From contig NZ_LR027574.1 in NCBI RefSeq assembly GCF_900605015.1, forward strand, positions 512,479-576,478: a stretch of 64,000 nt of DNA, in the 5' to 3' direction. The position numbers and the translations under genes were made by a program. Within the stretch, counting starts at the first letter, position 1. Each line of letters opens with the position of its first letter. Below the pieces are notes generated by a model, which worked only from the letters and a program-made list of their open reading frames with translations, was not told where the DNA came from and searched no databases. Below, piece by piece: positions 2,960 through 11,100 of this stretch. The DNA is from Olsenella sp. Marseille-P4559. Lineage in GTDB: Bacteria > Actinomycetota > Coriobacteriia > Coriobacteriales > Atopobiaceae.

Positions 2960-3667
2960 CTAGGCCCCCATGAAAAGATCGTAGAGCGAGCCTGCCGTGG
3001 AGTCTAGAATCCACCCAAGAGGGTCTACGTTAAAGGCGTAGGGGATGAGGTAGAGCGCCACAACGAGAATGGGCATCGCATACTGTTGCACCTGGTAGTA
3101 GATACGGCGGGAGCGCTCGCTTCTAAAGAGCGGCGAGATGACCTTGGAGCCGTCGAGCGGGGGCAGCGGTATGAGGTTGAAGCACATGAGCATGAGGTTC
3201 ACGTAGACGTACGTCGAGAGGACCATGAGCGTCCAATACGCCACCTGGTACCAGGGATTCACGGCGAGCGCCCCAGAGTTGAGCCCCGAAGTGAACCCCC
3301 AATACGCGAGGCGGCAGACAGCTGCTCCGGCAAGTGCCTGCAGGAGGTTGCAGACCGGGCCGGCAAGAGCCACCAGCGCCTCGTCGCGGCCGCGCGTCTT
3401 GGAATCGAAGTTCATGGGATTGTAGGGCACGGGCTTTGCATAGGCAAAGATTGGCCCCCCAAAGGCACCCATGATGAGCGGAAGGATGACAGAGCCAAAG
3501 GGGTCAATATGTGCGGCAGGGTTAAGCGTGAGGCGCCCTGCGTTCTTGGCCGTGGGGTCTCCAAGCCGGTTGGCCATCCAGCCGTGGGCCACCTCGTGCG
3601 GAATGGCCGAAAGCATGACGAGGCCCACCGAAATGAGAATCGAGATGACGCGAGAGGTCGAGAACAC
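2960..3667 (-). CDS. Site-2 protease family membrane metalloprotease (M50B)
   Basis: A 235-residue polytopic membrane protein. The first hydrophobic helix carries the zinc-binding HEVAHG motif (IPHEVAHGWMANRLGD), and the second zinc site is within NLIPLPPLDGSKV near residue 175 (the Asp of the family NPDG-like motif). Four or more membrane helices are visible. This short form lacks a PDZ domain and matches the group routinely found just upstream of scpA in Gram-positive bacteria; the substrate is unknown. It lies in an operon between a small membrane protein (17-base gap) and scpA (6-base gap). Confidence 0.88.
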   Translation of the reverse strand: MFSTSRVISILISVGLVMLSAIPHEVAHGWMANRLGDPTAKNAGRLTLNPAAHIDPFGSVILPLIMGAFGGPIFAYAKPVPYNPMNFDSKTRGRDEALVALAGPVCNLLQALAGAAVCRLAYWGFTSGLNSGALAVNPWYQVAYWTLMVLSTYVYVNLMLMCFNLIPLPPLDGSKVISPLFRSERSRRIYYQVQQYAMPILVVALYLIPYAFNVDPLGWILDSTAGSLYDLFMGA

Positions 3668-9463: not shown

Positions 9464-9539
9464 TGGTGGGCCCAGTAGGATTCGAACCTACAACCCAGGG
9501 ATTATGAGTCCCCTGCGCTAACCGTTGCGCCATGAGCCC
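9464..9539 (-). tRNA. tRNA with CAT anticodon (elongator Met or Ile2)
   Basis: A 76-nt cloverleaf: acceptor GGGCTCA/TGGGCCC (one G-T pair), anticodon stem GGGGA/TCCCT with loop CTCATAA, T arm AGGTTCGAATCCT, discriminator A and encoded CCA. The G1-C72 pair rules out initiator tRNA. CAT could be elongator Met or the lysidine-modified Ile2; the CTCATAA loop and A73 occur in both, and I cannot decide by eye. Confidence 0.9.
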
Positions 9540-9581: not shown

Positions 9582-9657
9582 TGGTGGAGAATAGGGGGTT
9601 CGAACCCCTGACCTCGTGACTGCCAGTCACGCGCTCTCCCAACTGAGCTAATTCCCC
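9582..9657 (-). tRNA. tRNA-Ala (anticodon GGC)
   Basis: A 76-nt cloverleaf: acceptor GGGGAAT/ATTCTCC, D arm GCTC...GAGC, anticodon stem CGTGA/TCACG with loop CTGGCAG (GGC, Ala), T arm GGGGTTCGAACCCC, discriminator A and encoded CCA. Confidence 0.95.
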
Positions 9658-9840: not shown

Positions 9841-9890
9841 CTGGCGAGAATAACCGGTCGTGCGTACGCACGAACGCCACTTCTCGCCAG
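9841..9890. repeat. Palindromic repeat copy 1 (nested hairpin)
   Basis: A perfect 16-bp palindrome centred on GTAC (TCGTGCGTACGCACGA, 9858-9873) lies inside a perfect 10-bp inverted repeat, CTGGCGAGAA (9841-9850) and TTCTCGCCAG (9881-9890). The whole block can form one long interrupted hairpin on either strand. Related copies follow at 9904-9966 and 9974-10038. Confidence 0.8.
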
Positions 9891-9903
9891 CCTGCCTACG
9901 TTT

Positions 9904-9966
9904 CCCGAGTTGGGTGAGAGGTGCCTGTCAACAGCTGAGGGTTGTGTGTACGCACGACCCCGGATT
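9904..9966. repeat. Palindromic repeat copy 2
   Basis: A 22-bp near-palindrome (9939-9960) centred on GTAC, with two positions that pair only as G-T. It shares flanks with copy 3: CCCGAG about 45 bases before the centre, AGAGGTGC about 26 bases before it, and CGGATT just after. Confidence 0.75.
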
Positions 9967-9973
9967 GCCGCCA

Positions 9974-10038
9974 CCCGAGACCCTTTCAGAGGTGCAAATG
10001 GCAGAAGTCGCAGGTTGTGCGTACGCACAACCCGGATT
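9974..10038. repeat. Palindromic repeat copy 3
   Basis: A perfect 20-bp palindrome (GGTTGTGCGTACGCACAACC, 10013-10032) with the same flanking blocks as copy 2 (CCCGAG, AGAGGTGC, CGGATT) at nearly the same distances. It lies just beyond the stop of the FMN oxidoreductase gene. Confidence 0.75.
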
Positions 10039-10068
10039 TTCGGTCGCCGCGCGCCTTCCAGTCAGCCC

Positions 10069-11100
10069 CTACCAGCTCACCATGCCGTCAGTGATGTCGG
10101 CAACGGTCTCGGCACCGCACATCTCCATCGTGTTCGAAAGCTCGCCCCGAAGCTGGGCGAGATAATCGCGCACACCCCGCTCTCCCCCACCGTACATGGC
10201 CACCACGAACGGCCGGCACATGAGGACCGCGCTCGCGCCAAGGGCAAGCGCGCGGAAGACGTCGATACCGGTGCGAATACCGCCGTCGACTAGCACGATG
10301 AGCTCCTCCCCGACGGCCCGCGCAATCTCGGGAAGCACGGTTGCTGTGGCCTCGACGCCATCCTGCACACGTCCACCGTGATTGGAGACCACGATGCCGT
10401 CGGCTCCGGCCTTGAGTGCCTTCTCGGCACCCCGCTCGGTCATGATCCCCTTGAGGACAAAGGGGGTATCCGCCGCGTGGCACGCTTTGGCGATCTCCCG
10501 CAGCTGCGAGACGCCCTTGGTCCCAGCAGGCGGCTGTTGCCCCTTGAGGAAGGGCAGACCGGCCCCGTCGATGTCCATAGCCACGGCCGCAGGACGGGCA
10601 GCCAGTGCAAGTTTCAGCTTGTCCCGCACCACATCTCTAGACCAGGGCTTGATGGTGCATATGCCACATCCATCAAGGCCGGAAATGGCACGACAGGCCC
10701 CCTCGTGCAATGACGCGGCGAGACCGTCGCCCGTCCAGCCCAGCGTGCCCGCTCCTGCCGCCGCCCGGAGCATGACGTCGTTATAAGAGTCCATGGTGTA
10801 CTTGGGGCCGTAGTGGAGGTTCACGTCACCGAGCGGGCCCACCATTACGGGAAGGGATAGCTGCCGGTCGAAGAGCGTCACTGAGGTGTCTGGGACAAAT
10901 GGCTCGTGAATCGTATCCATGTGCACCATCACCGACTGCCAGGCCTCGTAGTTGCGGATGGCCACCATCCCCGTACCCTTGGCACCTGGTCCCGGAATGT
11001 GGTTTTTGCAGGCCCTCCCATCACAGATGGGGCATGCCTTGCAGGCTCCCATCTGCCCGTGCGCCGCCTCCGCCAACTCTACGTAGCTCATGCCACCCAT
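10069..11100 (-). CDS. FMN-dependent alpha-hydroxy-acid oxidoreductase with N-terminal Cys cluster
   Basis: A 343-residue TIM-barrel flavoprotein of the lactate oxidase / (S)-2-hydroxy-acid dehydrogenase family. Seen: SNHGGR with the catalytic His at about 241 and flanking Arg 244, Lys 217 in VLKGIM, and the FMN phosphate loop VDGGIRTG with a later LMCRPF. The N-terminal 45 residues contain Cys 20, 23, 26 and 31 (CKACPICDGRAC), a CxxCxxCx4C spacing that could bind an iron-sulfur cluster; this is inference. The barrel is shorter than lactate oxidase at its N-terminus. ATG at 11100 has GGGGGAG 6 bases upstream; the long upstream frame is a proS shadow. Substrate unknown; probably an anaerobic dehydrogenase rather than an oxidase. 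Confidence 0.85.
   Translation of the reverse strand: MGGMSYVELAEAAHGQMGACKACPICDGRACKNHIPGPGAKGTGMVAIRNYEAWQSVMVHMDTIHEPFVPDTSVTLFDRQLSLPVMVGPLGDVNLHYGPKYTMDSYNDVMLRAAAGAGTLGWTGDGLAASLHEGACRAISGLDGCGICTIKPWSRDVVRDKLKLALAARPAAVAMDIDGAGLPFLKGQQPPAGTKGVSQLREIAKACHAADTPFVLKGIMTERGAEKALKAGADGIVVSNHGGRVQDGVEATATVLPEIARAVGEELIVLVDGGIRTGIDVFRALALGASAVLMCRPFVVAMYGGGERGVRDYLAQLRGELSNTMEMCGAETVADITDGMVSW

Follow-up and report, generated by a model that had tools for sequence, protein, structure and literature searches.

What are the three related palindromes that lie in a gene-free interval of the stretch of Olsenella sp. Marseille-P4559 DNA analysed here (64,000 nucleotides; the window)? The palindromes are each 20 bp long and occupy positions 9856–9875, 9940–9959 and 10013–10032, with their centres 84 and then 73 bp apart, which confirms the copies that an earlier reading of the letters alone (the sequence-only reading) had placed near 9865, 9949 and 10022. 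Their location between a tRNA gene and the 3' end of a protein gene was also correctly described. On one side lie the minus-strand genes for tRNA-Ala (ggc; 9582–9657) and, beside it, tRNA-Met (9464–9539), and on the other is a minus-strand gene (10069–11100) whose 3' end is 22 bp from the array and which the sequence-only reading took for an FMN-dependent oxidoreductase. FMN_dh (PF01070) was matched in one gene, not further specified, of the 72 array neighbours scanned across the genome.

The repeating unit is a 48-bp dyad with the consensus TGGCAgaaaa-n5-gTyGTGCGTACGCACrAc-n5-ttttcTGCCA, a symmetric arrangement built around a core that is a perfect 12-bp palindrome. When 44 arrays are read outward from their outermost palindromes, conservation extends through ttttcTGCCA as far as position 24, counted from the dyad, beyond which the information is at background (~0). 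The unit is thereby defined as 48 bp, in a reading that leaves out one of two near-identical array copies. A unit of about 65–75 bp had been proposed earlier and is corrected to 48 bp, with linkers of 36 and 25 bp between units. The window array spans 9842–10046 (205 bp, unstranded, as are its units) and consists of three such dyads. Unit 1 (9842–9889) has its palindrome between the half-sites TGGCGAGAA (9842–9850) and TTCTCGCCA (9881–9889), a pair that accounts for the 10-bp inverted repeat already noticed around the first copy and whose counterparts flank the palindromes of the whole family. Unit 2 (9926–9973) carries TGTCAACAG (9926–9934) and TTGCCGCCA (9965–9973), and unit 3 (9999–10046) carries TGGCAGAAG (9999–10007) and a weak outer half-site, TTTCGGTCG (10038–10046).

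The window array belongs to a large family, in keeping with the multi-copy interspersed element suggested at the outset. In the genome of the window (G000; 3.09 Mb, 10 contigs, 98.7% complete), the segment 9820–10060 has 47 BLAST matches, and pattern and model searches together with a weight matrix run over the fetched stretches gave at least 45 arrays, comprising 161 sites, in a catalogue whose construction favours good palindromes and may under-count decayed copies. Within C1:1–400,000, a stretch read in whole, TGCGTACGCA occurs 42 times against 0.4 expected, and all 42 occurrences fall within its 14 arrays. Genome-wide, 81 of the 84 exact copies of GTGCGTACGCAC are catalogued array sites; the other three were not placed, and an array may therefore be missing from the catalogue. 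No exact core stands alone in 400 kb of C1. A solitary degenerate 48-bp unit is present in a gap between called genes at C1:222503 and is possibly the relic of an array.

Several further features of this chromosome were seen beside the arrays. A 527-bp segment that contains an array with its flanks is present twice at 99.8% identity (C1:44985–45511 and C1:52134–52660), evidently a recent duplication of a segment longer than the array it carries, and one copy sits at the 3' end of a gene with a ribosomal S10 domain. The GC content of C1:1–60000 is 0.71 to 0.66, versus ~0.63 over the remainder of the first 400 kb. Inverted repeats of a second kind, GATGAGACAAAGGG..CCCTTTGTCTCATC, occur repeatedly between genes in both G000 and its congener G233, and some of them adjoin an array (L095 ~1905–1945; the flanks of L031 and L032; the empty L093 site in G233).

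The arrays follow strict spacing. Among 116 centre-to-centre distances, 55 are 73 bp and 46 are 84 bp, followed by 72 bp (nine) and 83 bp (three), with 61, 81 and 85 bp seen once each. Arrays hold two to six sites, mostly three or four, and the commonest orders of spacing are 84-73, 73-84 and 73-84-73. Whether an 84-type unit has an outer neighbour at 73 bp is nearly always clear-cut: 17 of 49 oriented units have one on both sides, 26 on one side and 6 on neither. Measured from outer half-site to outer half-site, the most frequent length is 205 bp (18 of 44 arrays), which corresponds to three units as in the window, and a further 16 arrays are 277–278 bp long, corresponding to four; the remaining 10 have other lengths.

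Two kinds of linker separate the units. Those of the 84-type are 36 bp long, have a mean pairwise identity of 0.64 and share the motif GTTTGCCCAGTTGGGCGAGA, which in the window array reads GTTTCCCGAGTTGGGTGAGA (9900–9919) within the linker at 9890–9925 on the plus strand. Those of the 73-type are 25 bp long with a mean pairwise identity of 0.43, and the window example (9974–9998, plus strand) is likewise poorly conserved. Whereas the 73-linkers are close to random in sequence, the sites have kept their letters, a pattern that suggests selection acting on each copy, although arrays in an advanced state of decay would have been missed by the search. The spacings of 73 and 84 bp amount to about 7 and 8 helical turns, and 114 spacings give a resultant length of 0.954 at a period of 10.5 bp and 0.973 at 11.0 bp; as there are just two main spacings, 11 bp apart, these values are consistent with helical phasing but do not prove it.

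Would such units act as RNA or as DNA? The sequence-only reading held that the arms keep pairing while their bases change and saw in these compensating changes a folded RNA or a dimeric-protein site. The compensating changes were not confirmed: when each pair of arm positions in 158 sites from 44 arrays was compared with shuffled right arms, no palindrome arm position was found to covary. At the pair singled out by that reading, the most variable in the arms, the combinations are C-G (48), C-A (36), T-G (30) and T-A (20; Fisher p = 0.86), such that C-A mismatches are as common as T-G, the G·U of an RNA. No Watson-Crick excess is significant at the ten innermost arm pairs (all p > 0.29), and among 22 arm pairs one alone reached p = 0.03. 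The RNAalifold covariation term is 0 for 29 units, and no array searched matched an Rfam family; in one search tRNAs alone reached the gathering score and in another nothing did. Since the arms vary independently and C·A is as common as G·U, neither compensatory change nor an RNA fold is supported. A structured small RNA or an mRNA processing element could be imagined because the palindromes could fold and because REPs of other organisms are thought to be transcribed (PMC3733652, in part), but independent arms, the RNAalifold result and the Rfam searches led us to reject it as very improbable. The RNA half of the original suggestion thus falls, and the dimeric-protein half is strengthened by the dyads and their spacing in helical turns. 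In their variation the two arms resemble copies of one half-site, each of which would be read independently in double-stranded DNA.

Dyad sites, independent variation of half-sites and helical phasing are hallmarks of arrays for dimeric proteins, and all three are found here. On balance we consider it probable, if by a small measure, that the arrays are a lineage-specific family of multi-site, phased docking elements on DNA for a candidate oligomerising DNA-binding protein, with a role that is likely architectural or insulating. A putative homodimer would contact the central GTGCGTACGCAC and, at a distance of about two turns to either side, TTTCTGCCA, so that one dimer would cover one 48-bp unit. 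Neighbouring dimers, lying on the same face of the DNA, could then oligomerise to form a wrapped or looped complex. Each copy would be kept because binding matters, and the likely role of the complex would be in nucleoid architecture or in insulation between transcription units.

The placement of the arrays bears on this role. With genes called by our own codon-model script in place of a curated annotation, 44 of the 45 arrays are intergenic and the remaining one overlaps a low-scoring open reading frame by 3 bp. Apart from that case, the flanking genes are codirectional at 26 loci, convergent at 13 and divergent at 5; compared with background gaps in C1:1–400,000 (codirectional 144, convergent 39, divergent 44), the shift toward convergent gaps is weak. 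In that stretch the arrays lie a median of 111 bp from 3' ends and 192 bp from 5' ends. With 13 of 45 arrays lying between convergent genes, a promoter-proximal role cannot be general. No functional theme was found among the neighbours (72 of the 85 listed were scanned): HAD hydrolases were matched in 5 of the 72, and other families, overlapping HAD models aside, in two at most. Some arrays adjoin genes with ribosomal L7/L12 and S10 domains, and others lie near what we take from gene order to be rpoB, fusA and tuf. High expression of the neighbours was considered as a common theme and set aside, as their codon adaptation is at most marginally above that of other genes (p = 0.058).

These placements also weigh on the idea that the arrays are operators, through which a transcription factor controlling an exceptionally large regulon would silence or activate adjacent genes from multiple sites. 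Dyads separated by 7 and 8 turns would suit a loop-forming regulator, and short-range lac loops in vivo span 6–8 helical turns (PMC5081198, in part). The arrays may be likened in their working to lac-type repressor sites, which also comprise paired dyads and form short loops, and the difference between 84 and 73, 11 bp, is close to the fitted in vivo helical repeat of lac looping, ~11 bp (PMC1762422, in part). The arrays differ from the lac type in usually having three or four phased dyads, in occurring at 45 or more loci and in often lying away from promoters. The regulon idea also gains from hipBA-like operons of Hugonella and a Collinsella MAG that are each preceded by three copies of the same core. 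Against it stand the 13 convergent and 5 divergent placements among 45, the lack of solitary exact cores in the 400 kb of C1 and the lack of a theme among the neighbours, and no close HipB homologue was found in G000. We regard it as improbable.

The hipBA-like operators merit description in their own right. In Hugonella massiliensis (L088, 4005–4102) and an uncultured Collinsella (L087, 3943–4041), members of two Coriobacteriia families, three copies of the core ATGCGTACGC spaced ~39–40 bp apart make up what appears to be a shared HipB-type operator beside a hipB-hipA-like pair, these gene names being our reading of the translations. They resemble the arrays in containing TGCGTACGCA in three regularly spaced copies and differ in their spacing, in their ATGCGTACGCAT-type flanks, in their position beside that gene pair and in not being dispersed in arrays. 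Although the common core made HipB a candidate binder, it was not adopted, since the best match in G000 is weak (C1:167375; E = 0.002, 31% identity); similarly weak matches occur in four congeners.

How widely is the family distributed? The paired-core pattern is present in 4 of 296 genomes of the class: at 72 places in G000, at three in the congener G157 and at one each in two others. A search of 84,980 GTDB species, among which the window's own genome may not be represented, returned ten stretches. One is from Olsenella sp. UW_MP_ATO3_1 and two are the triple operators just described; the others lack the array architecture in a weight-matrix scan, among them a stretch from a Bacteroidia MAG (L110) with three weak sites. 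A 104-bp model matches 2 of 140 genomes of the family at E up to 1e-4 and, within the genus, 4 of 8 at E up to 0.01, of which two, G176 and G296, were not accepted as carriers because their matches are weak (E ~6e-4) and without the palindrome. Phages and plasmids gave no match, and among viral contigs three stretches matched, none with a pair of well-scoring sites. Across the GTDB species, phages, plasmids and the 139 other genomes of the family, the only close family member found outside G000 is a single array in an Olsenella MAG (G157). The sequence-only reading had named an absence from relatives, together with a lack of transcription, as evidence against its proposal, and the absence is largely seen within the genus, where six of seven congeners have no convincing copy; the many copies are in G000 itself.

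The array of G157 lies within a 3,656-bp block that is 93% identical to the G000 locus L096, whereas the adjoining DNA is 76% identical, so that recombination with DNA of a G000-like donor is the most likely source of the array. Also inside this block is an inverted repeat, AAAAGTGAACACG..CGTGTTCACTTTT, which lies between a glycosyltransferase-like gene and the array (L086 ~3140–3230 in G157, and the same place in L096). At the window locus, congeners have kept the flanking genes and none has the array. In G233 the array is absent from all five loci at which both flanks could be aligned; at four of them G000 has an additional 230, 336, 219 and 206 bp, and at the fifth it is G233 that carries extra DNA. 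The exact junctions of these empty sites are blurred, as the intergenic DNA has diverged between the two genomes. No analogous arrays built on another palindrome were found in G233 C10:200–600 kb. From this distribution we infer that the element spread on the lineage of the window species.

Such a spread could be that of a non-autonomous, MITE-like mobile element, in which the 48-bp units would be binding sites of a transposase or recombinase and the arrays self-serving, with no role for the host. Lineage-specific dispersal, the empty sites in G233, sharp ends and standard sizes all fit, as do the 206–230 bp by which G000 is longer at three loci that hold a 205-bp array and the 527-bp duplicate that carries one. 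However, no target-site duplication is evident (observed mean 1.77 versus 1.73 in shuffled comparisons, 44 arrays), and the copies have diverged, their 73-linkers being 43% alike, while the sites stay intact, unlike simple decay after insertion. The genes scanned showed no array-linked transposase; by Pfam there was none in ten genes, mostly near closely spaced arrays, and the Y1 transposase is absent from G000. We consider this account unlikely as the whole explanation, although a mobile-element origin is plausible and may combine with a function for the host.

The Y1 result counts most directly against a REP/BIME-type repeat mobilised by a RAYT transposase. The arrays share with REP, BIME and REPIN families short intergenic palindromic units, few spacer classes (here a mosaic of two linker classes) and, in some families, restriction to one species. 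They also lie mostly in co-directional or convergent gaps, as REPs do (PMC3733652, in part), with a bias that is weak here. REPs are defined as imperfect hairpins with a GTAG or CGTC tag (same source, in part), whereas the array unit is symmetric over 48 bp, with a perfect 12-bp palindrome at its dyad, paired outer half-sites and arms that do not covary; its spacing seldom departs by more than 1 bp from 73 or 84, and neither tag is seen at the ends of the consensus. Moreover, Y1_Tnp (PF01797) has no match in the 98.7% complete G000 and one or two in each of the seven congeners, six of which lack a convincing array and the seventh of which has a single acquired one. Given the absent transposase and end tags, membership in this group was rejected, and we attach hardly any probability to it.

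BOX/RUP and the enterobacterial RU elements are also short, intergenic and multi-copy, and are set apart by description as MITE-like or stem-loop elements, not phased dyad arrays. Bacterial interspersed repeats are usually taken for hairpin RNAs or transposon debris. Among the papers listed from open-licence PMC we found no description of this array family, and those listed for the string TGCGTACGCA are unrelated; the parts of the RepRanger paper (PMC12306157) available to us do not mention Coriobacteriia.

The spacing rule of 7 or 8 turns, at most 1 bp off, the two array sizes and the independent arms point to a protein assembly on double-stranded DNA, and the family has expanded in one lineage while nearly absent from the rest of the genus. 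More tentatively, and with the odds against so specific a picture, the arrays may represent a chromosome-organising system private to one species, in which a dedicated oligomeric protein wraps or bridges three to four phased 48-bp dyads at 45 or more loci; the sites would have been dispersed in no other lineage and would now each be maintained individually. If the binder is found, the family would offer a direct test of whether, within one genus, a genome can gain a new system of architectural binding sites and retain it.
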